Shown here: one piece after another, positions 20,711 through 37,256 of the stretch
How positions within the stretch are numbered: the first letter of the stretch is position 1
Layout of the letters: each line of letters begins with the position of its first letter
Assembly (NCBI GenBank): GCA_015060445.1
Contig: SUYL01000018.1
Location: forward strand, 1 to 57,540
DNA from: Bacteroidales bacterium
Lineage (GTDB): Bacteria; Bacteroidota; Bacteroidia; Bacteroidales; UBA932
Direction of reading: 5' to 3'
Length of the DNA: 57,540 nt
Made by a program: the position numbers and the translations under genes
Notes under the pieces: generated by a model
Databases searched by the model: none
What the model saw: only the letters and a program-made list of their open reading frames with translations
Told to the model about the DNA's origin: nothing

Positions 20711-20740
20711 ATCCCCGTTAGAATATGCTCTAGCGGGGAT
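20711..20740 (+). terminator. Terminator of the rimP-nusA-infB operon
   Basis: ATCCCCGTTAGA and TCTAGCGGGGAT pair over 12 positions with one G-T wobble and a 6-nt loop, followed by the T-rich TACTTATTTT. Between 20741 and 20847 I see nothing else. Confidence 0.75.
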
Positions 20741-20847: not shown

Positions 20848-20879
20848 TTTGCAATTGGAAAAGAAAATCTTTAAATTTG
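20848..20879 (+). promoter_or_regulatory. Promoter of the caspase/CHASE2 operon
   Basis: The -33 TTTG (20848-20851) and the perfect -7 TAAATTTG (20872-20879) are separated by 20 nt. It is among the best promoter matches in the window and lies 28 nt before the first gene of the eight-gene run. Confidence 0.7.
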
Positions 20880-20907
20880 AGATTATTTTACTTAATTGGA
20901 TAAGACT

Positions 20908-21393
20908 ATGATAATGAGAAGGGTTCTAATGTTCAGTATTGGTTTGTGTCTGATCTCTTTCTGTTTGTCTGCATCGGCTCAGGTCAAAATTACAGCATCG
21001 CATAAGGATTTCAAGATTCAGGTGCTCAGATGTGCGGTACAGGGGAGCAGTTGTTATGTAGATATGCTGTTTGAGAATAAAGGTGCTGCAGATTTGAATG
21101 TGAGGGCCGACATTGATGCCCTGAAAGGATATGATGATGCAGGTAACCAGTATAAATACGGAAATAATGCAAATGGTGCTTTCCTGTATATTGCGGATAT
21201 GAATTATGCAATGCCGTCATATAACAGCAATGCTGTATTTGCATCAGAGGTTCCTGTGAAAGTAAGGGTGGAATTTACAAATGTAAGTGAGATAGCAACG
21301 CAGATAAGGAGACTGGAATTCCATTACGTGGGCCCCAACGATTATTTGGACAAACGGGTTGTGAAGATTTCAAATATTCCCATTTCCCGATAA
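20908..21393 (+). CDS. Exported hypothetical protein, paralogue A
   Basis: The 161-residue product has a signal peptide ending SASAQ. The mature part looks like one beta-sandwich: IQVLRCAVQGSSCYVDMLFENKG, VRADIDALKGYDDAGN, VPVKVRVEFTNVSE, and it ends ISNIPISR. The two Cys of LRCAVQGSSC could form a disulfide in the periplasm. The next gene encodes a clear paralogue with the same Cys pair, the same YDD.GN element and the same PISR end. The ATG at 20908 is used because the upstream in-frame TTG precedes no additional signal. No known family was recognised. It is the first gene of the operon. Confidence 0.8.
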   Translation: MIMRRVLMFSIGLCLISFCLSASAQVKITASHKDFKIQVLRCAVQGSSCYVDMLFENKGAADLNVRADIDALKGYDDAGNQYKYGNNANGAFLYIADMNYAMPSYNSNAVFASEVPVKVRVEFTNVSEIATQIRRLEFHYVGPNDYLDKRVVKISNIPISR

Positions 21394-21409
21394 GTACTGT
21401 AAGTAAATA

Positions 21410-21907
21410 ATGAAAATTATGCTCAAGAAACTTTCAATACTGTTTATAGCCGCATTTGTTGCAGTTTCTGTTTCCGAAACTTTTGCCCAGGGCGTAAGAT
21501 ACAGGACAAGTTTTGAGGATGTGTCAATAAAGGTACTCAGGTGTGCCGTGCAGTCTGACAATTCATGTACTGTTGATTTTCTCATGGAGAACAACGGTAA
21601 CAGAGATTACAGGTTGCTTGCCACAACATGGTCGAGTGTAGTGCATGTAAACAGGGCATATGATGATATGGGCAATGAATATTCAAAAATTACTATGGCT
21701 GTTGGAAATACTTCAAAGTATGTTGGAGAATGGGATAAGGTGAAGAATTTTCCTGCAGGTGTGGTATTGAAAGTGAGGGTGAAGATATCTGATGTGTCGG
21801 AGTTGGCAACAGAACTCAAGAGGCTGGACATTGACTTGTGTGATGAAAGCCAATGGAATTCGTCGAGAAGACCGGTAACATTATTTGATATTCCAATTTC
21901 CAGATAA
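21410..21907 (+). CDS. Exported hypothetical protein, paralogue B
   Basis: This 165-residue protein is a tandem paralogue of the preceding gene. It has a signal peptide ending ETFAQ, a Cys pair in VLRCAVQSDNSCTVDFLMENNG, then YDDMGNEY and VVLKVRVKISDVSELATELKRL, and the same final IPISR. Conserved strands and a conserved Cys loop with a diverged middle suggest one fold with different ligands. The predicted fold resembles small beta-sandwich periplasmic proteins. It starts 16 nt after paralogue A and ends 12 nt before the transglycosylase gene. Function unknown. Confidence 0.8.
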   Translation: MKIMLKKLSILFIAAFVAVSVSETFAQGVRYRTSFEDVSIKVLRCAVQSDNSCTVDFLMENNGNRDYRLLATTWSSVVHVNRAYDDMGNEYSKITMAVGNTSKYVGEWDKVKNFPAGVVLKVRVKISDVSELATELKRLDIDLCDESQWNSSRRPVTLFDIPISR

Positions 21908-21919
21908 CAGTATTAGAAT

Positions 21920-23017
21920 ATGAGGATATTTGCAATAGTATTGTTTTTGTTTGTGGGTGTTGTATCTTTTGCCCAGAACAGCAGTATTGCGGGAAGGGCT
22001 AAAAGCAGGATGGATGCAATCCGGAACAGGCATGCCGACAAGGTGGAAAGGCTGAAAGCCGAGCATGAGGCTTTCAGAAAGGAAGTTATGGCCAAGTGGG
22101 GGGAGAAACAGATGGTTGAGAGTTCCCAAAAGGTATGGGTGGAGTATTCAGATGATAAGGAGAGCAGGTTCAGTGTGGATTTTGAGAAAGGTGAGGTTAA
22201 GGTGGAGGTGCTTTCAGATAAGGATGAACCGGTAAAGATTACTCAGGAAAAGATACAGAAGGCAGTTGGCAGTATGCTGGAGAGCAGGGGAAAAACTGTT
22301 GATTTCAAATCCGAGGTGGTGGAACAGAAGCCGGTTGCAGACAAGCCTATTTTGGAGAACCAGATAAAGGTTGTTCCAAAAGAGGTGGCAGCCAAAAGCA
22401 GTTCCCATTCCCATAAGGAGGTTTCTACCAGTGGCGGGGTAAAGAGAGTGAGTTCTGTTGTTTTGCAACTTAATCCCGATCACCTTAATCAGAGGGCACA
22501 GAAGGTGAGGCCTTATGTAGAGAAATATGCAAAGATGTATGGCATAGATGTTCCGTTGGTATTTGCCATTATTGAGCAGGAGTCGGCATTTAACAGGATG
22601 GCCCGTTCCGGCAAGAATGCTTATGGCCTCATGCAACTTGTGCCAAAATATGGCGGGAAGGATGCCTATATGTATGTGTTCAAAATTGATGATGAACCCG
22701 AACCGGAGTTTTTATATGATGAGGAGAATAATATAAGGTTAGGGACAGCATACATAAAGATTCTTATGACAAGGGAGTTCCCTACCATTAAGGAGAAGAT
22801 AAACAAAATGCTCTGCACAATAGCGGCATATAATACAGGGGCAGGCAATGTGGCAAGGGCATTTACCGGGAAGTTAAGTGTTAGTGGTGCGGCAGGTCAG
22901 ATAAATGCCATGAGCAACGGGCAGTTGTACAATTACTTGAGAGAGAATCTGCATCATCCTGAGGCAAGAGGATATGTTAAAGGGGTGACGGAGAAGATGA
23001 AGAAATATGTAAAATGA
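21920..23017 (+). CDS. MltC-like lytic murein transglycosylase
   Basis: The 365-residue product has a signal peptide (to VVSFAQ) and a coiled helix (about 25-60). An MltC-type N-terminal domain follows, with WVEYSDDKESRFSVDFEKGEVKVEV. After a linker comes an SLT catalytic domain (about 195-345). The catalytic Glu221 is in AIIEQESAFN, followed by AYGLMQLVP and AAYNTGAGNV. Such enzymes cleave peptidoglycan with formation of anhydromuramic ends. Unlike E. coli MltC there is no lipobox, so it is probably periplasmic and soluble. Its place between the small exported proteins and the CHASE2/caspase genes ties the operon to the cell wall. Confidence 0.9.
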   Translation: MRIFAIVLFLFVGVVSFAQNSSIAGRAKSRMDAIRNRHADKVERLKAEHEAFRKEVMAKWGEKQMVESSQKVWVEYSDDKESRFSVDFEKGEVKVEVLSDKDEPVKITQEKIQKAVGSMLESRGKTVDFKSEVVEQKPVADKPILENQIKVVPKEVAAKSSSHSHKEVSTSGGVKRVSSVVLQLNPDHLNQRAQKVRPYVEKYAKMYGIDVPLVFAIIEQESAFNRMARSGKNAYGLMQLVPKYGGKDAYMYVFKIDDEPEPEFLYDEENNIRLGTAYIKILMTREFPTIKEKINKMLCTIAAYNTGAGNVARAFTGKLSVSGAAGQINAMSNGQLYNYLRENLHHPEARGYVKGVTEKMKKYVK

Positions 23018-23024
23018 TATCAAT

Positions 23025-23630
23025 ATGGGAAAGAGATTATTACTGTTGGCAGCAGTGCTGATGATAGGCGCGGTTGCTTCATATGCTCAGATGAGCAGTA
23101 AGGAGATTGAAAAACTTGCATCTGAACAAAGTGAGGAATACCGTAAAGAGGGGTGGAAAGCAAATGTTGGAAGTATGCCTTTAAAGTACCAACTTATAAA
23201 GGCATATACCATGCAGGAGGAAGTTGTAAACGGACACAACAAATATATAATTGCAGATGGGAAAGTAAAGGGTGCTGCATTTGAGGCTGCAAGGGTGCAT
23301 GCAATGGAAATGGCCAAACGCAATATGATATCCATGATAGATAATATGACCTTTACAGATTCTGAAGGGAACACCATAAATGTGGAGGGGTCCGATATTG
23401 AAAGTGAGAGTTTGCAGGAGACCAGGTACAAGACATCAAGTTCTCTGGATTTGGGGAATCTGATACCGGTTCTTACATGTTACAGGGAACTCCCGGAAGG
23501 GAAAGTTGAGGTGTTGGTAAAGTTGGCATGCACCAGGGACAATGTAGTGAAAGCTTTGCTTAAGAGGGCAAAGTCAGAGGCCAAAATACAGGATTCTGCA
23601 CCAAAAGTAACCTCATCACATACTCTATAA
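23025..23630 (+). CDS. Exported LPP20-like protein
   Basis: The 201-residue product has a signal peptide ending VASYAQ. The region around AAFEAARVHAMEMAKRNMISMIDNMT resembles LPP20/FlgT-N-like domains, where a conserved Ala/Arg/Glu-rich helix carries the signature. The later VLTCYRELPEGKVEVLVKLACTRDNV fits the second strand pair of that fold. The similarity is by eye and moderate. LPP20-like proteins are commonly found next to DUF4384 and caspase genes in Gram-negative bacteria, which fits this cluster. It is 7 nt from each neighbour, so co-transcription is near certain. Confidence 0.65.
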   Translation: MGKRLLLLAAVLMIGAVASYAQMSSKEIEKLASEQSEEYRKEGWKANVGSMPLKYQLIKAYTMQEEVVNGHNKYIIADGKVKGAAFEAARVHAMEMAKRNMISMIDNMTFTDSEGNTINVEGSDIESESLQETRYKTSSSLDLGNLIPVLTCYRELPEGKVEVLVKLACTRDNVVKALLKRAKSEAKIQDSAPKVTSSHTL

Positions 23631-23637
23631 CACATTT

Positions 23638-24756
23638 ATGGGCAAATATAAAGGAGCCATAAAGGATGCTTTGTTGGCAAATATGCTTACACTGGTGGTT
23701 TTGTCCATCCTGTATGTTTTTGCCGGAAGTCTGTTCTCATTTTTTTCTACAGGAAAGGACAGCAGTTGGCTGTTGTCCAAATATGTAACATTCAAGAATA
23801 ACGGAAGGGCTCCAGTGTATGAGGATAATGTGCTGATATGTTCTATAGAGGGGGTAAGTTCAAGGGATTCCATAGCGGCCATTATTGGTAGACTAAACAG
23901 TTATGGCCCCAGTGCAATAGGTTGCGACATTATTTTTTCACAGGCAAGTGGCGTTGATTCAATGCAGAATATTAGATTGAAACAGGCTGTGGAGGGTAAT
24001 GGGAAGATTATTGTGGCGCAAAGGCCTGTTCTCGACGGGCTTGGAAGGTTGAGCCATGTTGAGGAATCCATTTTTGACGATTGCCTGAGCGGTGATGTTA
24101 CAGTTTATTCAGATGGCAGCCATTCGAGGAATACTTTTATTGATGGAGTAAAGTTTGAGAATTTCGCTTCCCTTGTTGCTGAAACTGCGTGTGGTGAAGT
24201 AAGGTATCCAAAAAAACAATATTCTGTTGATTATACCAACAGGTATTTCCCTGTGATGGGGATAGACGATATTGTTGAATCTGATGTAAAAGGAAAAATA
24301 GTTCTCTTGGGTGATACTGAGGATTTGAGGGATTACATAGATATGGATTTTGCAATGACCGACCACAGGTATTCCAATACTATGACCACCTCAAAAAGGG
24401 TTCCGGGAGTTTTCCTTCATGCATACGCGGTGGCTTCTATGGTTAATGACAACTGGATTATTGCTGTACCAAACTGGATAAGCCTGATATTGGGATTTAT
24501 AGCCTCATTTTTCCTTACATTACTGGGCAAATGCTGGACATTGAAAGGTATACCCCGGTGTTATTTCAAATGTGTGCATCTTGCAGTATTCACATTTATG
24601 ATTTGGGTGTGTTATCCATTGTATTTGTGGTTTGATGTGATAATGAGTCCATTGTATTTTACAATTGGAGTGGCAATGAGTGATTTCTCCCTTGCAGGAT
24701 TGGATATGGCAAGGCATATAAAGTCCAAACTTCCTATAAGGCGCAAACATGTTTAG
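23638..24756 (+). CDS. CHASE2-domain membrane protein
   Basis: The 372-residue product has one N-terminal membrane helix (about 12-36). An extracytoplasmic CHASE2 sensor domain (about 60-270) contains ICSIEGVSSRDSIAAII, AIGCDIIF, GKIVLLGDT and PGVFLHAYAVASMV. Three more membrane helices follow (about 275-297, 312-333, 335-352) and a short basic tail. CHASE2 domains sense unknown signals and usually feed a kinase, cyclase or other output on the same chain. Here no output domain is present. The adjacent, 8-bp-overlapping caspase gene may be the output partner (inference). Confidence 0.9.
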   Translation: MGKYKGAIKDALLANMLTLVVLSILYVFAGSLFSFFSTGKDSSWLLSKYVTFKNNGRAPVYEDNVLICSIEGVSSRDSIAAIIGRLNSYGPSAIGCDIIFSQASGVDSMQNIRLKQAVEGNGKIIVAQRPVLDGLGRLSHVEESIFDDCLSGDVTVYSDGSHSRNTFIDGVKFENFASLVAETACGEVRYPKKQYSVDYTNRYFPVMGIDDIVESDVKGKIVLLGDTEDLRDYIDMDFAMTDHRYSNTMTTSKRVPGVFLHAYAVASMVNDNWIIAVPNWISLILGFIASFFLTLLGKCWTLKGIPRCYFKCVHLAVFTFMIWVCYPLYLWFDVIMSPLYFTIGVAMSDFSLAGLDMARHIKSKLPIRRKHV

Positions 24757-27127
24757 GAGAATATATATATTGGCATTATGCTTTTTAGTGGCAAATATTG
24801 CGGCTTGGGGCCAGCAGTACAGGGTGTGTGATGTCTCTTCTGTACCTGCACATGTAAGGCTTGCCAGTGGAAAGGATGTGGTAAGGAATATGCAGGTTGA
24901 TGGGAAGGATATCCTTGAATTTGCAAGATATTCCAAAATATCTTTGATGGATGTAAAGAGCAAAGAGATATTTTTCTATGCAGGAGAGGGGAGATTTAAA
25001 GTTGAGGATATAGTGGGGAAGAACAGGGCACAGATAAAACAAAACCTGAAGGCCCATCTTAAAGATTTGCTTCAGGGCAAGACCCACACAAAAATGGCAG
25101 GAGTGGTTTATAAGGATCTTGCTTCGGAAGTGACAACTTTGCATGGGAACTGTCTTCTTATTGTAAATGAGAAAGGGAATATTGTTGGACAAAGGGGTAT
25201 TGAGGAAGGGGGTATCTATTATTTTGTAGTTTCAAACACATCTGATGTCCCGTATTTTGTAAATGTGATAAGTACAGGGGCAGATGACCGGAAGAGAGTA
25301 TGTTGCCTTTCTGGAGATGCCATGGCACAGATGGATCTTCTTGTACCTGCGGAGGGAACAGTGATGCTCTCTGCTTTCCCCCAAATGGGCAAGGACCTTA
25401 TGTCGGTTGAACTTAAGGTTGTTGCAAGTGAGGCTCCTTTTGATGCAAAAGCCTATCTTGAGGAGAATCCTTATATCCAGATATTGTCCCCTGCACACAA
25501 TTCAACATCAGGTTATCCCTACATTACATTGAGGTTCCTTGTTAAGGATCCCGACAAAATAAAGTCAGTGGATGCATTCCTGAACGGAAAGGAGGATGGC
25601 AGGATTGCCGTTGTGGAGGGGATAAATGAGCGGAAGTTCAAGTTGGCCAGTTATGGACCGAATTTGTTGGAATTGCGATTGCAGGATATGTCGGGAAGGA
25701 AATATTCCCTGAATGTTTCTGTAAACTATGAGAGGTTGGACAAGCCGAAACTCCACATTATGGCTGTGGGTATAGGGAATTACAAAAACAGCGAAATTGA
25801 GAAACTCCATTATGCTGCAAGTGATGCGGCAATGGTTGCAGAGGTTTTGGATACATTGAGGGCCATGAACCTGGATCTGTATGATAAGGGGGGATGCCAT
25901 TTCTTGCTTGCAGATGAGGAGGCCACAAGGGGAAGGATTCTCAAATGTCTGGATGACATAAGGTATGAGGCTGATGCTGGAGATATTGTGATGATATATA
26001 TGTCGGGACATGGAAAATACGTTGAGTTTACATCACAGAGGTATTTTCTCCCGTATGATGTTGAGGATGATATGTATATTGAGTCTACAGCAATCAGTTA
26101 TGCAGATCTGAAGGGAAAGTTGAAACAACTTGAGGACAAGGAGTGCAAGGTTATAGTATATATGGATGCTTGTTATGCAGGGGAGATGTACTATACAAAA
26201 GCGGCAAATGATTTTATAGGTGATTCTGACCCGGCTGTAATAGGTTTCTATTCAAGCACAAGAAACCAGCCTTCTCTTGAGAAGGTGGAACTGAATCATG
26301 GTGTCTTTACCTATGCATTGCTTAATGGCATAAAAGGTGGGGCGAGTGATTCAAACGGGAATGTGACAATTACAAGCCTGGGAGATTATATTACAGAACA
26401 GGTGCGTATTGAGTCACAGGGACGGCAGACTCCAAAGGTAGACAATGGCGGGGAGGATTTCATTCTGTTCAGGGCTGGTGACAAGAATATGAAGGTGTCG
26501 GTACCGGCAAAGGGAGTGAAATTGTGGGGAGAAGAGGATGCTGTGGAAACGGGGAAGAATGCGGCAATTGTGCTGGCAGAGAGTTATTATATGGGAAAGG
26601 CCGTTCCGCCAACAATGGAAGATGAATTTAAGGCATATGTTGCCGCAGCGGAACTCGGAGACTTGAAGTCAATGTATATGGCTGGTGTATGCCTTGAAAA
26701 GGGGAAGGGCACCCCTCAGGATTATGGGGCTGCATTGGAGTGGTATGGAAAGGCTGCAGTTGCAGGACTTGCGGCAGCACAGTACAATTTGGGGGCAATG
26801 CACTATAACGGAACCGGAGTGGCAAGGTCTGTTGATTTGGCTGAAAAATGGTTCCTGGAGGCTGATGGAAAAGGGTATGCAATGGCCTCGGCAGCATTGG
26901 GACACCTGTATTACCATAAAGATACGCCAGATTACAATAGGGCGTTCAGGTTTTTCAGCAAAGGTGCTGAGGGGGGAGATGCTATGGCGCTGTTCTATTT
27001 GGGTGAGTGCCATTTGTATGGAAGGGGAACAGTTGAGGATATATCAGCCGCTCTGCAGGCATATAAGCTGTCTGCAGAAAAGGGTTTTCAGGCTGCAAAA
27101 GATAAATTGATGGAGATAGATTTTTAA
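24749..27127 (+). CDS. Exported caspase-like peptidase with Sel1 repeats
   Basis: The 792-residue product begins with a signal peptide (to AAWGQ), followed by about 310 residues of unrecognised, probably beta-rich sequence. The C14 caspase-like domain (about 334-575) has the catalytic His421 in MSGHGKY and Cys475 in YMDACYAG. At least four Sel1 repeats follow (about 634-785), the kind AQYNLGAMHYNGTG and ALFYLGECHLYGRG. The fold is of the bacterial metacaspase/orthocaspase type, which cleaves after basic residues; the substrate is unknown. Sel1 repeats bind proteins. The ATG overlaps the CHASE2 gene by 8 bp, which implies translational coupling. Confidence 0.93.
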   Translation: MFRRIYILALCFLVANIAAWGQQYRVCDVSSVPAHVRLASGKDVVRNMQVDGKDILEFARYSKISLMDVKSKEIFFYAGEGRFKVEDIVGKNRAQIKQNLKAHLKDLLQGKTHTKMAGVVYKDLASEVTTLHGNCLLIVNEKGNIVGQRGIEEGGIYYFVVSNTSDVPYFVNVISTGADDRKRVCCLSGDAMAQMDLLVPAEGTVMLSAFPQMGKDLMSVELKVVASEAPFDAKAYLEENPYIQILSPAHNSTSGYPYITLRFLVKDPDKIKSVDAFLNGKEDGRIAVVEGINERKFKLASYGPNLLELRLQDMSGRKYSLNVSVNYERLDKPKLHIMAVGIGNYKNSEIEKLHYAASDAAMVAEVLDTLRAMNLDLYDKGGCHFLLADEEATRGRILKCLDDIRYEADAGDIVMIYMSGHGKYVEFTSQRYFLPYDVEDDMYIESTAISYADLKGKLKQLEDKECKVIVYMDACYAGEMYYTKAANDFIGDSDPAVIGFYSSTRNQPSLEKVELNHGVFTYALLNGIKGGASDSNGNVTITSLGDYITEQVRIESQGRQTPKVDNGGEDFILFRAGDKNMKVSVPAKGVKLWGEEDAVETGKNAAIVLAESYYMGKAVPPTMEDEFKAYVAAAELGDLKSMYMAGVCLEKGKGTPQDYGAALEWYGKAAVAGLAAAQYNLGAMHYNGTGVARSVDLAEKWFLEADGKGYAMASAALGHLYYHKDTPDYNRAFRFFSKGAEGGDAMALFYLGECHLYGRGTVEDISAALQAYKLSAEKGFQAAKDKLMEIDF

Positions 27128-27136
27128 TTGGCAGAA

Positions 27137-28063
27137 ATGAGGGTATTATTAGTATCATTAATGGCAGCATGCTGCATTTTGTCTGCAGGTGCTTTGTTTG
27201 CACAGAGTAATGTCAGCAGGCCAAAGTCCTTTAACATTACAAGGGGCAGCGGTACCGCTGCCGCCGGAAAGATTTTAAGTGGAAGTGATGTTGAACGGGA
27301 TATACCGGTTTCAAAAGCAGAAAACGAAAATACTTTTGTGGTGATAATAGCAAACCAGATGTACAAAAAGGTTGCACCTGTTGAATTTGCATTGAATGAC
27401 GGTAGGATTTTCAAAGAATACTGCAAAAGGACATTGGGTATTCCGTCTGACAATATCCATCATGTGGAGAATGCCACGTTAAATGAGATAAGGGCAGAAG
27501 TGAGATGGTTGAAGGAGGTGATGGATGCATATTCAGGAGGGGCAAAAATAATATTCTATTATGCAGGGCACGGTATTCCGCATGAATCTGAACGTACGGC
27601 ATATCTTCTGCCTGTTGACGGTTATGAGACAGATATTGAAACCGGTTACAAGTTGGGGACATTGTACAGGACGTTGGGAGAGATGCCAAGCCAGTTTGTG
27701 ACAGTTTTTATAGATGCCTGTTTTGGAGGGTCGAAACGTGAAGGGGATATGATTGCAAATGCAAGAGGTGCTGTGATAAAGGTGAGGGAAGAGGAACCTG
27801 TGGGTAATATGGTTGTGTTTACTGCCTCGCAGGGAGACGAAACAGCATATTCATATAAGGAGCAGCAACATGGTATGTTCACATATTTTTTGTTGAAGAA
27901 ATTGAAAGCATCCAGAGGGGACGTTACATTGGGGGAGTTGGACGATTATATAAGGAGAGAGGTAAAGCGGAAGAGCATTGTACTTAACGGCAAATCCCAG
28001 ACACCTACTGTGATACCGTCGCTTACTTTGGGTGAGGATTGGAAAAATATGAAGTTGAAGTAA
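27137..28063 (+). CDS. Second exported caspase-like peptidase
   Basis: From the ATG at 27137 the product has 308 residues, with a signal peptide ending ALFAQ. A single C14 domain (about 62-300) carries the catalytic His145 in YYAGHGIP and Cys195 in FIDACFGG, plus ASQGDETAY and GMFTYFLLKKL toward the end. It has no repeat domain, so it is the compact partner of the larger caspase 9 nt upstream. An in-frame TTG at 27128 is less likely. The stop overlaps the next start (TAATG). Two intact caspases in one operon may form a cascade or act on different targets; that is inference. Confidence 0.93.
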   Translation: MRVLLVSLMAACCILSAGALFAQSNVSRPKSFNITRGSGTAAAGKILSGSDVERDIPVSKAENENTFVVIIANQMYKKVAPVEFALNDGRIFKEYCKRTLGIPSDNIHHVENATLNEIRAEVRWLKEVMDAYSGGAKIIFYYAGHGIPHESERTAYLLPVDGYETDIETGYKLGTLYRTLGEMPSQFVTVFIDACFGGSKREGDMIANARGAVIKVREEEPVGNMVVFTASQGDETAYSYKEQQHGMFTYFLLKKLKASRGDVTLGELDDYIRREVKRKSIVLNGKSQTPTVIPSLTLGEDWKNMKLK

Positions 28064-28617
28064 TGAAAAAGATTTTGTCAATTTTAATTCTGTTGTTATC
28101 CAATGTTGCGGTTGCTCAACATGTGACTGATGTGGATGCATATCAGTTTGGAGACAAGATAATTGTTGAATATGCCATATCCGGCCCGGAGAACCCCAGT
28201 TCAGGCGGCAGATATTCTGTTGTCCCAAGTTTCTCAGTGGACGGTGGTAGAAACTATACGGCTCTGAGAAGCATTTCAGGAGATTTGAGTAATGTGAATG
28301 TAGGGAGAGGAAAAAGGATAGAGTGGCGTGTCCTGGAAGATTATGACTCATTTGTCCATCCCGAAGTAATTTTTAAAGTTGATATTTATGGCGGTGGATC
28401 AGATACTGCTGATGTACAGGAACGGAAGGCTGAATCTTCTTCAACAGATAAATCTTCTTCAACACTTGAATCAGGTGCTGACTATTATAGAAAAGGGCAG
28501 GAGTGTGAAAAAAACAAGCGGTATGCTGATGCAATAAAATATTATCGTCAGGCCTCCCAAAAAGGGTATAAACAGGCTGATGAACGGATAAGGGCACTGC
28601 AACTGCAGTTCTGGTAA
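28063..28617 (+). CDS. Exported protein with beta-sandwich and TPR/Sel1-like tail
   Basis: The 184-residue product has a signal peptide ending AVAQ. Its N-terminal domain (about 22-110: DVDAYQFGDKIIVEYAISG ... FSVDGGRNYTALRSISGD ... VGRGKRIEWRVL) matches the small sandwich domain seen in many Bacteroidetes surface proteins, often before formylglycine-enzyme-like or caspase domains. A Ser/Thr-rich linker is followed by one TPR/Sel1-like unit (GADYYRKGQECEKNKRYADAIKYYRQASQKGYKQAD). The ATG overlaps the preceding TAA by one base. It is the last gene of the operon; a perfect hairpin terminator follows 8 nt after the stop. Confidence 0.8.
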   Translation: MKKILSILILLLSNVAVAQHVTDVDAYQFGDKIIVEYAISGPENPSSGGRYSVVPSFSVDGGRNYTALRSISGDLSNVNVGRGKRIEWRVLEDYDSFVHPEVIFKVDIYGGGSDTADVQERKAESSSTDKSSSTLESGADYYRKGQECEKNKRYADAIKYYRQASQKGYKQADERIRALQLQFW

Positions 28618-28625
28618 TAGTACAG

Positions 28626-28657
28626 AATAAGGGAGAAATTGTCATTTCTCCCTTATT
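28626..28657. terminator. Bidirectional terminator between the caspase operon and the sppA operon
   Basis: A perfect 14-bp stem (AATAAGGGAGAAAT with its exact complement, loop TGTC) sits between the two convergent operons. It overlaps the last codons of the minus-strand gene. A-rich and T-rich flanks on each side could serve both directions. Confidence 0.8.
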
Positions 28658-29457
28658 TCTATAATCTGCTGATGGATGAATTTTTCGTTGTTGGGAATTC
28701 TTGCAATCCATTCAACAATCTCTTTTGCCGATTGTGAATCCTTGTCAAAAGCCCATTTGCGGGTAGTGAACAGAAAAATCAGTTTGTTGAATTCCTTGTC
28801 CAAGTTGGGACTTTTGGCAAATTCTATATAACTGCGGGAGTCCTCATTGAGTTTGTACTCCTGGTTTGCATAGTATTTCTGGTCTTTTACATACTGGTTG
28901 GGGATGAGCATATAGCCGGTTTTCTCATTTTCAATAAGGAAAAGCATCATATAGCACTCCTTATATGGGGTAAAACTGAAGTGGAGTTCTTCACCTGTAA
29001 AATACACACTTCTGATTCCCTTTATAGGAACAATGAACTCCGGGTCTGGGGCAATCCCGGTTTTTACCTTTACATCTGCAATGCAGTAAAATAAAATTGC
29101 CCCGTCTCCCAGTTCAGTTCCCTCTTTGACTATATTGAATTCTACAATTTCCCCTTCCCTTGAACTTGTGTTGTAATTTACAAGATTGTTGAGCGATTCT
29201 GCCCCCTCTCCATATTCAGAGTTTGCAACAACAAGATCCGACCAGCTTTTATACACTTCAGATGTAACTTCAGATATGGCTTTCTCCTTGCAGCGTGCGC
29301 GGAGTTGCTTTTTTATATCTGCAGTTGAATAATCCTCCGAGAGCAGGACTGTATATTCACATCTTACATTTTTAAGTGTGTGTATGGTCTCATCCTGTGC
29401 TTCCATATTGAGGCTCATGGTGAGCAGACATGCCAAAACTATAAGGAATCTTGTCAT
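28642..29457 (-). CDS. Exported DUF4384-like protein
   Basis: The 271-residue product has a signal peptide (to NMEAQ). The first half, with YSTADIKKQLRARCKEKAISEVTSEVYKSW, resembles an LPP20/FlgT-N-like helix. The second half (GEELHFSFTPYKECYMMLFLIENEKTGYMLIPNQYV) resembles DUF4384, a beta domain known from proteins encoded beside bacterial caspases. The assignment is by eye and moderate. It lies 12 nt downstream of sppA and converges on the caspase operon, sharing its terminator. That suggests a functional link with the caspases although it is on the other strand. Confidence 0.65.
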   Translation of the reverse strand: MTRFLIVLACLLTMSLNMEAQDETIHTLKNVRCEYTVLLSEDYSTADIKKQLRARCKEKAISEVTSEVYKSWSDLVVANSEYGEGAESLNNLVNYNTSSREGEIVEFNIVKEGTELGDGAILFYCIADVKVKTGIAPDPEFIVPIKGIRSVYFTGEELHFSFTPYKECYMMLFLIENEKTGYMLIPNQYVKDQKYYANQEYKLNEDSRSYIEFAKSPNLDKEFNKLIFLFTTRKWAFDKDSQSAKEIVEWIARIPNNEKFIHQQIIEIREK

Positions 29458-29469
29458 AGGATATGCTTT

Positions 29470-31233
29470 TTAGTATCTGAACTCGTAGCAGAACGGATGG
29501 CGGGCGTATACTTTGAAGCCACCCTGCTCAAGTGCTTTTGAGTAGATCCCTTTTATGGTTTCCTCTGGAGATGCAACAGCCTTGACTGTTGCTTCTGCGC
29601 CACCAAGCATCTCCATAAACTGCTCCATTGATGTTTTTGCCTTAGGATACTCCACTATTCTGTATGAGTTGAGGTCTGCACATGCTGCAGCATAGTCAAT
29701 GGCATCAGTAATGCCGCCAATTGCGTCAACAAGTTTGTTTTCCAATGCGTCTGCACCGGTCCATACGCGTCCCTGGCCAACTTCATCAACATATTCTACA
29801 GGGAGACTCCTTCCTTCCGATACAAGGTTGGTGAATTTTGTATAAATGTCTTCCACCATTCCCTGCATGAATGCCACCTCTTTGGCATCAAGAGGGTCTA
29901 TTCCGTTCATCATGTTGCTGTGGGCATTTGTCCCTATGTCGGCAGTGTTTATTGAAAGGTGTTTTCGCAAACCTTTGCCGTAGTTCATTGCCATGCTGAA
30001 TACACCTATTGAGCCGGTGATGGTTGTCCTGTCTGCAAATATCTTTTCAGATTTTGCGGAGATCCAGTATCCTCCAGATGCGGCATATTCTCCCATACTC
30101 ACAATTACAGGTTTGCTCAGACGCATAATCTGAAGTTCGTTGTTCAAAATTTCTGCAGCCTGGGCATCACCGCCAGGTGAATTTACCCTAAGTACAACAG
30201 CCTTGATTGAAGAGTCTTTGCTTACCTCCCTTATTATAGGGTAGAATTTCTTTGCAGAAAGGCCTTTTGAGTCGTCCATTGTTATTTCGCCGTCTGCATA
30301 AATTACGGCAATTTTCTCTTTGGCTTTGAGGTCAGGTTTTACAACAGCCTCCGCATATGTAGGCAGGCTTATGAATTTGAGCCCTTTGTCTGACTTGACA
30401 TCAAACAGGTTGCACAGGATGGTTGACATTTCATTCCTGGTTACAAGACCGTCAATCAGGCCGTTTTCAAGCATTGACTCTGCAGAGAAGAGTTTTAGGT
30501 CATCTACCAGCCTGTTTATCTGTGCAGGCTCAATGTTGCGGCTTTCTCCAATCTCCTCTATCCAACTTTCCCAGATTGATCCCAGCATCTGCCTGTTCTG
30601 CTCGTAGTTCTCCTTGCTTATGTTTGATGCTATGAACTGCTCTGCGGCAGCCTTGAATTTGCCGTGCCTTATCAGTTGCACTTCAATACCAAGTTTGTCG
30701 AGAAGATCCTTGAAGAACATCATGGTGCTTCCAATACCCACCATTGCAGATGAGCCCTCGGTATTCATGTAAATCTTGTCTGAAACTGATGCAAGATAGT
30801 ATGAACCCTGTGAGAAGTTGTCAACATAAGTTATGATTGCTTTTCCCTGTTTCTTTACATTTTCAAGGGCATTCCTTACCTCTTCAAGGTTGGCCATACC
30901 AATGTTCATGCTGTTGATGTTGAGGTATATGAATTTGATTGCAGGGTCTGATGCAGCATTCTCAATAGCCTTTACAGCCTTCAGTATCCCGACAGGTTTT
31001 GATGAATTGAAGTTCAGGCTCTGGAATGCAGCCATTGCATCTTCTTCTCCGAGTTCTGTAACAGGATTGTTGAAATCTATCCTCAATATGGCCTTTGCAG
31101 GTACAGCCGGTTCTGAACTTTCACCTAAGGCTGCAATGGAACCAATTATTCCAAAGAAGAGGAATGTGCTGATAGCCATGGCAATAAGGGAACCAATAAT
31201 TACTGCCAATGTGGTTTTTAGAAAATTTTTCAT
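29470..31233 (-). CDS. sppA: Signal peptide peptidase SppA, 67-kDa type
   Basis: SppA degrades leftover signal peptides in the membrane. The 587-residue product is the long tandem type, with an N-terminal membrane helix (about 5-35) and two S49/Clp-fold halves. The Lys general base sits in LIRHGKFKAAAEQFI. The Ser nucleophile sits in VSMGEYAASGGYWIS, after the VNSPGGD motif and before TITGSIGV. The length is usual for the E. coli-type enzyme. It is the first gene of a two-gene operon, with its own -7 element, divergent from the metal-handling genes. Confidence 0.94.
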   Translation of the reverse strand: MKNFLKTTLAVIIGSLIAMAISTFLFFGIIGSIAALGESSEPAVPAKAILRIDFNNPVTELGEEDAMAAFQSLNFNSSKPVGILKAVKAIENAASDPAIKFIYLNINSMNIGMANLEEVRNALENVKKQGKAIITYVDNFSQGSYYLASVSDKIYMNTEGSSAMVGIGSTMMFFKDLLDKLGIEVQLIRHGKFKAAAEQFIASNISKENYEQNRQMLGSIWESWIEEIGESRNIEPAQINRLVDDLKLFSAESMLENGLIDGLVTRNEMSTILCNLFDVKSDKGLKFISLPTYAEAVVKPDLKAKEKIAVIYADGEITMDDSKGLSAKKFYPIIREVSKDSSIKAVVLRVNSPGGDAQAAEILNNELQIMRLSKPVIVSMGEYAASGGYWISAKSEKIFADRTTITGSIGVFSMAMNYGKGLRKHLSINTADIGTNAHSNMMNGIDPLDAKEVAFMQGMVEDIYTKFTNLVSEGRSLPVEYVDEVGQGRVWTGADALENKLVDAIGGITDAIDYAAACADLNSYRIVEYPKAKTSMEQFMEMLGGAEATVKAVASPEETIKGIYSKALEQGGFKVYARHPFCYEFRY

Positions 31234-34766: not shown

Positions 34767-37256
34767 ATGAAAAGATTGCTGTTCCTTTTGGTGCTTGTTG
34801 CGATTTCTGTGCAGGCTGTGGCACAGAAATGGGTTAGGGTAAATAGTGTAGGTTATCTGCCCAATGATGTAAAAGTTGCGGTATTCATTGCAACCGGGAA
34901 GGCCGATGCTGCTTTGTTCAATGTGTGTGATGCGGTTACCGGAGAGGTTGTGTTTGTAGGGAATACAAAGCAGGTGAGTGGGGAGAAATGGAAGATGGAG
35001 TCTGCGTACCGTCTCAATTTTTCAGATTTGAAGAAGGAGGGGGGATATTATATAGAGTGTGCAGGGGCAAAATCTCCAAACTTCAGGATTGGGGCAGATG
35101 TGTATGACGGCCTTGCAGATTATATGCTTGTGTATATGAGGCAGCAGAGGTGCGGTGACAACCCTTATACCGATACCCTTTGCCACCAGCACGACGGCTA
35201 TATTGTTGACCATCCTACCCGCAACGGGGAGAAGATAGATGTAAGGGGGGGCTGGCATGATGCAACCGATTATCTGCAGTACCAGACAACCTCCGCTACA
35301 GCAACATACCATATGATGTTTGCATATTATATGGCGCAGGACAAATCTGTGTTCAAGGATGAGTATCTTGCCAACGGAAGAAAGGGCAAGAACGGTATTC
35401 CCGATATCCTTGATGAGGCAAAATGGGGCCTTGAGTGGCTCAACAGGATGAATCCTGAGGATAAGGTGATGTTCAACCAGATTGCAGATGACAGGGACCA
35501 TGCAGGGTTCAGGGTACCGCACAGGGATTCTGTAGATTACGGTTGGGGCCCAGGAGAGGGGAGGCCTGTATATTTTGTAACAGGAAAGCCTCAGGGGTTG
35601 GGCAAGCATATAAACAGGACAACCGGTGTGGCATCTACAGCAGGAAAGTTTGCATCATCATTTGCTCTGGGAGCGCAGATTTTTAAGGATATAGATCCGA
35701 AACTCGCCAATGTTATGCAGGTTAAGGCTGTGCAGGCATTCAATTTTGGTGAGGAGTTCCCCGGCAATACCCAGACAGCATGTCTTGTTTCCCCTTATTT
35801 TTATGAGGAGGATTCATATGTAGATGACCTGGAACTTGCTGCGGCAACATTTGCCGAGTTTACAGGTATGCCGGAGTGGATAAAGAAGGCAAACTATTGG
35901 GGAGACCTTGAGCCTGTAACCCCTTGGATGGAGGTTGGCAGAAGAGGTGAATACCACCATTACCAGTGGTATCCATTCATAAATTTGGGACACTTCCTTC
36001 AGGCAAAGAGCCAGGATAGGAAGATAGCGGAAAAGTATCAGGGCTTCATGAAACTTGGCCTGGATATCCTAAAGAAAAATGCGGAGAATGATCCTTTCAT
36101 GCATGGAGTCCCTTATTTGTGGTGTTCAAACAACCTTACATCTGCTGCCGTAACTTATGCAAGATTGTACAACATTGCATCGGGAGACTCATCATATGTG
36201 GAGATGGAGATGGCTTTGAGGGATTGGCTGCTTGGATGTAACCCTTGGGGTACAACCATGATTGTAGGTTACCCTTCAATTGCAGATTATCCCAGGTATC
36301 CTCACTCATCATATCTTACTGAGTGGAATGACATCACTTATGGAGGCCTCATAGACGGGCCTATACAGAGAGACCTGTTCCAGGAGAGGGCAGGTGGTTC
36401 GCTTACAAGGGAGGATGAACTTGCAGTGTTCAATAATGGAGAGGCTGTTTACCATGATGATTTGGGAGATTATGCAAGCAATGAGCCTACAATGGACGGT
36501 ACAGCGGGGCTTACATATTATTTTGCGGCAATGGAGGAGTGTGGCAAGAAGCAGAAGACCCTTGATGTTGTGGAGGACAAATACGGATGTGTTACCAGAA
36601 TAAACCCTGGGCAGAAGGACATTTATCTTGTATTTACTGCAGATTCAATGTTTCAGGGAGGGGAGAAGATTCTCAAGACCCTTAAGAAAAACAAGATTAA
36701 GGGCTCGTTCTTCTTTACAGGGAATGCCCTCAGACTGGAAGAGCATAAGGATATCATAGAAAAGATAATTAAGGAGGAGCATTATGTGGGTGGCCACTCG
36801 GATTCGCACATGCTCTATGCAGAGTGGGGAAACAGGGATTCACTTATTGTAACATACAAGCAGATTGAAGATGATATCATAGCAAATGCAAAGGAACTTG
36901 AGAAATTTGGTATAACCAAGGAGCAATCTTTGTGGTTCCTTCCACCGTATGAGTACTATAACGACGAGAGTGTGAGGATTACTGAGAACTTGGGCTACAA
37001 GGTGCTGAATTATACCCCTGGTACGGCAACACCGGCAGATTACACAACACCGCTGATGCCCAATTACAGAAGTTCGCAACAATTGATAGATGCACTATAT
37101 GCTTTTGAACATGCAGAGGGATTAGGCGGGGCCATTATCCTTATCCACCCTGGTGTACAAGAGGAGAGGATAGACAAACTTTATGACAGGCTGGGTGAGA
37201 TTATCCAGTATCTTGCAAAGAAAGGCTATTCTTTCAAGTCACTGAATGAAATTTAA
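34767..37256 (+). CDS. Exported GH9 endoglucanase fused to a polysaccharide-deacetylase-like domain
   Basis: The 829-residue product has a signal peptide (to AVAQ) and a CelD-type Ig-like domain (about 20-110). The GH9 catalytic domain (about 115-600) has the Asp motif GGWHDATDY, the block DWLLGCNPWGTTMIVG and the acid Glu region NEPTMDGTAGL. A C-terminal NodB-like deacetylase domain (about 620-825) follows. In that domain the usual TFDDG is FTADS, while GGHSDSHM keeps the His pair, so its activity is uncertain. GH9 cleaves beta-1,4-glucans such as cellulose or lichenan. The fusion suggests trimming of acetylated or amino-modified glycans. It starts a run with nfnA-nfnB-hisS. Confidence 0.9.
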   Translation: MKRLLFLLVLVAISVQAVAQKWVRVNSVGYLPNDVKVAVFIATGKADAALFNVCDAVTGEVVFVGNTKQVSGEKWKMESAYRLNFSDLKKEGGYYIECAGAKSPNFRIGADVYDGLADYMLVYMRQQRCGDNPYTDTLCHQHDGYIVDHPTRNGEKIDVRGGWHDATDYLQYQTTSATATYHMMFAYYMAQDKSVFKDEYLANGRKGKNGIPDILDEAKWGLEWLNRMNPEDKVMFNQIADDRDHAGFRVPHRDSVDYGWGPGEGRPVYFVTGKPQGLGKHINRTTGVASTAGKFASSFALGAQIFKDIDPKLANVMQVKAVQAFNFGEEFPGNTQTACLVSPYFYEEDSYVDDLELAAATFAEFTGMPEWIKKANYWGDLEPVTPWMEVGRRGEYHHYQWYPFINLGHFLQAKSQDRKIAEKYQGFMKLGLDILKKNAENDPFMHGVPYLWCSNNLTSAAVTYARLYNIASGDSSYVEMEMALRDWLLGCNPWGTTMIVGYPSIADYPRYPHSSYLTEWNDITYGGLIDGPIQRDLFQERAGGSLTREDELAVFNNGEAVYHDDLGDYASNEPTMDGTAGLTYYFAAMEECGKKQKTLDVVEDKYGCVTRINPGQKDIYLVFTADSMFQGGEKILKTLKKNKIKGSFFFTGNALRLEEHKDIIEKIIKEEHYVGGHSDSHMLYAEWGNRDSLIVTYKQIEDDIIANAKELEKFGITKEQSLWFLPPYEYYNDESVRITENLGYKVLNYTPGTATPADYTTPLMPNYRSSQQLIDALYAFEHAEGLGGAIILIHPGVQEERIDKLYDRLGEIIQYLAKKGYSFKSLNEI

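Follow-up and report, generated by a model that had tools for sequence, protein, structure and literature searches.

What might a bacterium do with caspases that it exports, and what could control them? The question is raised by a block of eight genes (g1 to g8; 20908-28617, + strand) in a 57,540-nt stretch of a gut Bacteroidales genome (contig SUYL01000018.1; hereafter the window), which encodes two predicted exported caspases together with a CHASE2 membrane protein. The block bears both on the role of CHASE2 proteins that have no output domain and on the purpose of exported bacterial caspases. An initial annotation had proposed that CHASE2 senses an envelope signal and controls periplasmic proteolysis and wall cleavage; comparison with other genomes sustained the link between CHASE2 and exported caspases and gave no support to the wall-cleavage half. 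Judged from these gene neighbourhoods, conservation does not extend to the eight genes as a set but does hold for their core. We see about an even chance that this core, g4 to g8 with a convergent ninth gene (g9), is a sensor-adaptor-protease switch that lies wholly outside the cytoplasm.

As the initial annotation had described, the eight open reading frames are tightly spaced on one strand (gaps of 16, 12, 7, 7, -8, 9 and -1 nt, with ATG start codons selected for g1, g7 and g8), and seven of the products (g1, g2, g3, g4, g6, g7 and g8) have signal-like N-termini, each with one hydrophobic segment by hydropathy. The genome comprises 2.18 Mb in 67 contigs, one of which (G000:C5) is the window, and both C14 (caspase) matches detected in it fall inside the block.

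The candidate sensor, g5 (23638..24756, + strand), is a 372-residue CHASE2 membrane protein (Pfam PF05226, 60.5 bits against a cut-off of 26.3, E value 2.4e-16) with three hydrophobic segments by hydropathy (residues 11-29, 274-292 and 312-330), the receptor-type domain lying between such segments. It was initially annotated as lacking an output domain, and no further Pfam match, such as a cytoplasmic kinase or cyclase, was found along its length at E values up to 1; only a short stretch follows the last hydrophobic segment. CHASE2 domains of known receptors face outwards, and by analogy it is plausible that CHASE2 senses an envelope signal here. A sample of 395 genomes from the class yielded CHASE2 in 41, the window's own included. 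A search of viral contigs with g5 gave one pattern match and no relative, and no solved structure matched CHASE2 by sequence at E values up to 0.1.

Most of the output-less CHASE2 genes examined in this class (Bacteroidia) lie beside a gene for a predicted exported partner. We built a profile of the neighbouring protein of about 300 residues and applied it to 56 distinct CHASE2 loci, window included (60 listed minus four second copies), each time trained without the family being tested (27 groups, each named genome forming its own group). The profile matched 44 of the 56 loci; in 42 of these the partner was adjacent (<400 bp from CHASE2), and in the remaining two (L256 and L278, the L numbers denoting loci) a caspase gene lay between CHASE2 and the partner. 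In five loci of one family the two genes are divergent, and these were not picked as seeds because of the same-strand seed rule. The first version of the profile gave 54 hits, of which 44 were kept for training and 10 with E values above 1e-30 were dropped: L202, L203, L204 and L208 (adjacency only), L206, L276, L277, L279 and L281 (true-looking short or fused members) and g8. Second copies in four loci were also excluded from the cross-validated count.

Several identities for the partner were tried and rejected. Pfam FecR matched none of 10 partners scanned singly at E values up to 1 and was absent among 25 of 30 families listed for 19 partners. MtxA_C was found in one of 19 partners, under its cut-off (E value 0.034), and no MtxA was named among 60 of 87 matches listed in a PDB search, which TPR proteins topped. 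The block's last gene, g8, was considered as encoding the C-terminal part of a partner divided in two, given a profile E value of 8e-5, yet hhalign aligned just the TPR (10.9%). Variants of the pair were also seen. Three loci of one family (L202, L203 and L204) encode longer CHASE2 proteins (534-550 residues) with no detectable adjoining partner, and in two genomes, both of one family, a single CHASE2 gene is followed by two partner paralogues in tandem (L195:10118-11976 and L197:6362-8253). In three Bacteroidales loci the partner domain heads proteins of 668-684 residues with signal-like N-termini, encoded right behind CHASE2 (L277:10039-12054, L279:6193-8199 and L281:6136-8190); in two of these a transglutaminase core is weakly matched towards the C-terminus (0.0054 and 0.013). 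The gene directly after CHASE2 in L077 (17536-19164) also has a weak transglutaminase-core match (0.018).

The partner domain and a caspase are joined in g6 (24749..27127, + strand). Because the partner profile and Pfam C14 both match g6, a single predicted exported chain holds the partner domain (about residues 1-170), an immunoglobulin-like stretch, a caspase domain (340-565) and Sel1 repeats. Pfam recognised C14 (E value 6.9e-12; 46.0 bits against the PF00656 cut-off of 21.4) and four Sel1 stretches, and the catalytic SGHG and DACYAG motifs are present in the alignment; by sequence the dyad is His421 and Cys475. The N-terminus matched the partner profile at 9e-5 with g6's entire family excluded, and hhalign of residues 1-244 against 19 partners, with no window row in the profile, gave 94.8% (E value 4.9e-8). 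Single partners match g6 too, for example that of L257 at 9e-14. By homology, g6 is a fusion of genes that adjoin elsewhere: partner domain, caspase and Sel1.

The same association was visible at the level of neighbouring genes. We examined 44 CHASE2 genomes other than the window's own (40 from the class sample plus G286, G249, G198 and G086), 31 of which held a total of 81 C14 matches. In five genomes, from five families, a C14 match lay within 3 kb of CHASE2, whereas random placement of caspases would give 0.18 genes (Poisson P = 1.3e-6). For a distance of 10 kb the expectation was 0.55 (P = 2.6e-4), and the P values are rough because the placement model ignores local gene clustering and kinship. 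The order on one strand was caspase-CHASE2-partner-caspase in L261. It was caspase-CHASE2-partner in L011 and L262; in L263 CHASE2-partner is preceded by a caspase and then a pair of genes, of which the first matches C14 more weakly, and L264 has a divergent arrangement. Four further loci, reached through their caspases and outside the count of five, read CHASE2-caspase-partner (L256, a congener), CHASE2-partner-caspase (L257), CHASE2-Sel1 caspase-partner (L278, Prevotella sp. UBA2755) and three C14 proteins followed by CHASE2 (L275, Prevotella sp. RGIG9967, identical in position to L077), with no DxC motif by pattern in the second of the three. The CHASE2-adjoining caspases mostly have signal-peptide-like N-termini by eye; the 735-residue frame of L011, as called, has none. 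Together with the fusion in g6, this recurrence upholds the initially annotated linkage of CHASE2 to exported caspases.

In a tree of 30 caspase domains, the CHASE2-linked label required 8 changes, at least four of them forced by well-supported branches. The caspase domain of g6 was nearest to the CHASE2-linked L257 and L256, with modest support (81/51), and that of g7 fell in a separate clade (100/99). CHASE2 linkage thus spans several caspase lineages. As a separate observation, WG repeats precede the caspase domain in three of seven CHASE2-adjoining C14 proteins scanned with Pfam (L257:8723-10465, 1.7e-23; L275:7359-8996, 3.5e-23; and L256:1037-3238, 2e-5, just below the cut-off).

The second caspase, g7 (27137..28063, + strand), is also predicted to be exported and has a stronger Pfam C14 match (3.8e-20, 73.0 bits). 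Its His145 and Cys195 are invariant in 28 of 28 aligned rows, and both caspases thus retain the His/Cys pair, as initially annotated. Asp193 lies two residues before Cys195, a position that we take to have a role in basic cleavage specificity. The structural model of g7 has a mean predicted local distance difference test score (pLDDT) of 81.3, with residues 1-47 and 199-216 below 50; the second of these stretches is a loop shortly after Cys195 in which Arg201, Met205, Arg210 and Gly211 are invariant in the 28 rows. Caspases and metacaspases are processed in a linker after the catalytic Cys, which makes this low-confidence loop a candidate cleavage site. The best solved-structure matches of the caspase profile, by sequence, were MALT1 and metacaspases (1.7e-5 and 2.3e-5).

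Relatives of g7 are numerous: at least 470 were recovered from at least 588 pattern matches in named genome contigs, and the 80 best of them led to 78 loci, whose labels include Prevotella, Paludibacteraceae, Salinivirgaceae, Alistipes and Bacteroides. Within 6 kb of the caspase and on its strand, these loci contained DUF4384 genes (the family of g9) in 34 of 78 cases, g4 homologues in 27 and g8 homologues in 18, counts that are lowered by contig ends and come from profiles iterated on the same 78 loci.

The predicted exported 201-residue protein g4 (23025..23630, + strand) thus represents a family that accompanies exported caspases. Members of this family also immediately precede CHASE2 in three further Bacteroidales loci (L276, L277 and L279, with overlaps of 1 and 4 nt and a gap of 12 nt), as g4 does in the window, at a gap of 7 nt. 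Its initial label, LPP20-like, found no backing: g4 matched no Pfam family and no PDB sequence at E values up to 1, and no LPP20 match was present in two relatives scanned. Its model has an alpha-beta core (mean pLDDT 82.7). The gene that recurs as a neighbour of g7-type caspases at the other end of the block, g8 (28063..28617, + strand), encodes a predicted exported 184-residue protein with one TPR below the Pfam threshold.

The initial annotation overlooked g9 (28642..29457, - strand; Pfam DUF4384, 3.3e-7), which belongs to the same set of families; among the neighbours tested, its family occurs most often beside g7-type caspases. DUF4384 genes are found directly upstream of CHASE2 in L274 and L280, and DUF4384 also occurs, below the Pfam cut-off, within the CHASE2-adjoining caspases of L261 and L011. 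Since the families of g4 and g9 neighbour both CHASE2 and g7-type caspases, they join the two halves of the block. On these neighbourhoods we count g9 as part of the finding despite its being convergent and placed after sppA. It starts 12 bp past the sppA stop on the same strand (28642-31233, -), so it is probably on the sppA transcript, and its export is less sure because its N-terminus is under the hydropathy threshold.

How could such a switch work? As g5 has no recognisable part on the inner side, and as its adaptor forms one chain with a caspase that is predicted to lie on the outer side, a docking-and-release or allosteric model is the most economical. The CHASE2 domain of g5, anchored in the inner membrane, would dock the adaptor domain of g6 and so keep the caspase membrane-bound, facing the periplasm. 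A cue from the envelope would alter this docking and switch g6 on, by release or allosterically, and g6 would then process g7. The candidate site, the low-confidence loop after the catalytic Cys with its invariant arginines, would suit C14 enzymes of basic specificity; passages of PMC6426788 describe orthocaspases as cleaving after basic residues. As the downstream protease, g7 would cut envelope substrates, and the Sel1 and TPR parts together with g4, g8 and g9 may be substrate-binding or regulatory helpers. More tentatively, and in our estimate with somewhat less than even probability, the locus may represent a class of Bacteroidota signal pathways in which output-less CHASE2 receptors control caspase-type proteases outside the cytoplasm by way of a dedicated exported adaptor, with reception, docking and proteolysis all in the periplasm and with an adaptor that can be fused to its effector. 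The adaptor-headed proteins of L277, L279 and L281, two of them with the weak transglutaminase-core match, suggest that the same receptor may drive interchangeable cysteine-enzyme effectors.

Several observations weigh against a dedicated CHASE2-caspase switch. The partner was undetected in 12 of the 56 CHASE2 loci; in 39 of the 44 other CHASE2 genomes the contig with CHASE2 carried no C14 match less than 10 kb away from it, and 13 had no C14 match at all. Broken contigs may hide some neighbours, and many of the compared genomes are metagenome bins, but the CHASE2-partner pair must also have another role. CHASE2-linked labels were not significantly clustered on the caspase tree (74 of 500 shuffles were as low). 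Export was judged by hydropathy and reading by eye only, and the window's genome is 87% complete. As a limit of the genome search itself, its first-look filter overlooks some members (g6 was missed in one search and found in two). Finally, CHASE2 was present in just two of the 78 g7 loci (L077 and L079); phmmer with g5 had found it in none, the CHASE2 profile raised the count to two, and a third weak hit, a 162-residue protein in L076 (6.7e-4), was left uncounted. The g7-type caspases, which are widespread in Bacteroidales, can therefore work without it. This fits a reading in which g6 and g7 are maturation proteases that trim surface and secreted proteins, g3, g4, g8 and g9 are envelope assembly factors and CHASE2 is an anchor or scaffold, not a sensor. 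The signal-like N-termini of the seven soluble products agree with such a task, as does the result of PADLOC, which recognised no defence system and named only the generic caspase model (g6 and g7) and a weak ZorA match of g3 (0.0018) as components. We nevertheless consider maturation rather improbable, as it accounts neither for the repeated occurrence of CHASE2 and its partner next to caspases of several lineages nor for the fusion of partner domain and caspase in g6.

The first three genes bear on two other explanations. The proteins g1 (20908..21393, + strand; 161 residues, with a Cys pair) and g2 (21410..21907, + strand; 165 residues) are predicted to be exported and have no Pfam match above cut-off; they are 33% identical, in keeping with their initial description as paralogues, and homologues were found only in the window's genome among 148 genomes of its family. 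The third, g3 (21920..23017, + strand), is a putative exported soluble lytic transglycosylase. It resembles MltC in having Mltc_N and SLT domains above the Pfam cut-offs (1.4e-12 and 1.9e-23), but it falls below the NCBIfam MltC equivalog cut-off (180.7 versus 375 bits) and has no lipobox Cys of a lipoprotein signal, its sole Cys being at position 299. Were the block a device for induced lysis or cell death, an envelope signal would trigger caspase cleavage and wall cutting by g3, which would kill the cell or open the wall in development or phage infection. A lytic transglycosylase within the same predicted transcription unit would suit this, and bacterial caspases are frequently tied to cell death, which is also the frame of the available parts of PMC3501461 and PMC7475262. 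However, homologues of g1, g2 and g3 occurred in none of the 78 g7 loci within 6 kb of the caspase on its strand, the one weak g3 match (L108, E value 1.5e-4) lying about 3 kb from the caspase on the opposite strand. Mltc_N was present in only five of the 148 family genomes, the window's own included, and PADLOC offered no defence system, so we regard a lysis device as very unlikely. The initially proposed control of wall cleavage is likewise unsupported. From these comparisons, g1, g2 and g3 are non-recurrent partners and probably local additions; g3 may open the wall for substrates or serve another purpose, and nothing recurrent links it to the switch.

That these three genes are not recurrent partners could instead mean a chance cluster, in which separately useful envelope genes sit on an acquired island with no joint function. 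The full eight-gene set was in none of the loci read, and the expected co-occurrence of all eight genes in other genomes fails as worded, given that g1 and g2 are unique in the family; the block is also an insertion relative to three close congeners. We consider mere chance improbable nonetheless, since other genera also have two or three of the g4 to g9 families side by side, g6 fuses two of these families and the gaps are so short.

CHASE2 receptors with protein partners or caspases have been described before. One case is a p20-CHASE2 fusion in Trichodesmium erythraeum, which couples a caspase-type domain to a CHASE2 receptor (PMC2853523, PMC3501461); according to the accessible portions of these papers, it is a single polypeptide with a caspase inferred to be cytoplasmic, whereas the caspases in the window are separate, predicted to be exported to the side of the CHASE2 domain and linked to it via the partner domain. 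In magnetotactic bacteria mtxA precedes a CHASE2-adenylate cyclase gene (PMC4439547, in the part available), and this pair likewise has a signal-peptide protein with immunoglobulin-like and TPR parts adjoining a CHASE2 receptor. Its CHASE2 protein, however, carries a cytoplasmic cyclase, and likeness to MtxA was confined to the single sub-threshold partner. The Burkholderia BiofilmReg operon, in which a LysM/FecR protein precedes a CHASE2 histidine kinase (PMC5192318, from excerpts), is similar in encoding an exported partner beside the receptor but has a kinase output with a response regulator and no protease, and its FecR domain had no counterpart in the 10 Bacteroidia partners. In Sinorhizobium meliloti, as stated in an excerpt of PMC13001267, an outer-membrane protein mediates the response of CHASE2 cyclases to a plant protein. 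Operons with several metacaspases, Sel1 or TPR metacaspases and signal-like N-terminal helices were reported in PMC3501461, and the block shares all these traits, but the CHASE2-partner-caspase arrangement was not found in the sections of that paper available. Searches of the open-licence PubMed Central literature brought up no description of the arrangement. As far as they show, four things are new: the split arrangement, in which everything except the membrane anchor is predicted to be exported, the recurrence of this arrangement, the adaptor, and the fusion in g6. The linkage and the natural fusion name specific protein pairs whose possible binding and activation bear on both questions raised above, and for caspases they shift the focus away from defence in the cytoplasm and towards proteolysis in the envelope of common gut bacteria.

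Finally, we considered the borders and origin of the block. A terminator-like hairpin 3' of infB (20711..20740, + strand) marks the upstream boundary of the unit. The initially annotated Bacteroidetes-type promoter is present as TTTG (20848-20851)-N20-TAAATTTG (20872-20879) on the + strand; this pattern occurs 6 times in the window versus 1.54 expected, so a single match is weak evidence and suggestive only. The closing hairpin (28626..28657) is perfect, as claimed, with two 14-nt arms (28626-28639 and 28644-28657) that are 100% complementary; it overlaps the end of g9, may therefore serve both strands and is probably a two-way terminator.

In three of the closest congeners (L226, L227 and L230, with sppA proteins 85, 82 and 76% identical), sppA and infB face each other, 83, 68 and 346 bp apart, and in the window the eight genes and g9 fill this gap with about 8.8 kb. 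In two others of similar closeness, L228 and L229 (sppA 79 and 78% identical), the two genes share a strand and are separated by about 12 kb. None of 20 congener regions obtained from the 38 other genomes searched in the genus held a homologue of g1 to g9 at an E value of 1e-3, some regions being shortened by contig ends (L241 to 2.7 kb), and C14 caspases were found in four of the genus's 39 genomes, the window's own included. The simplest reading of these comparisons is that the block was gained in this lineage, and it may have been acquired as a unit between infB and sppA. Two end regions scanned contained no useful direct repeats marking an insertion, and no integrase or transposase was found among 10 other window products scanned. 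Most block genes have slightly lower G+C than infB and are near sppA, which makes composition uninformative. Elsewhere in the window (34767-37256, + strand), an 829-residue protein combines a glycosyl hydrolase family 9 domain and CelD_N with a polysaccharide deacetylase domain.

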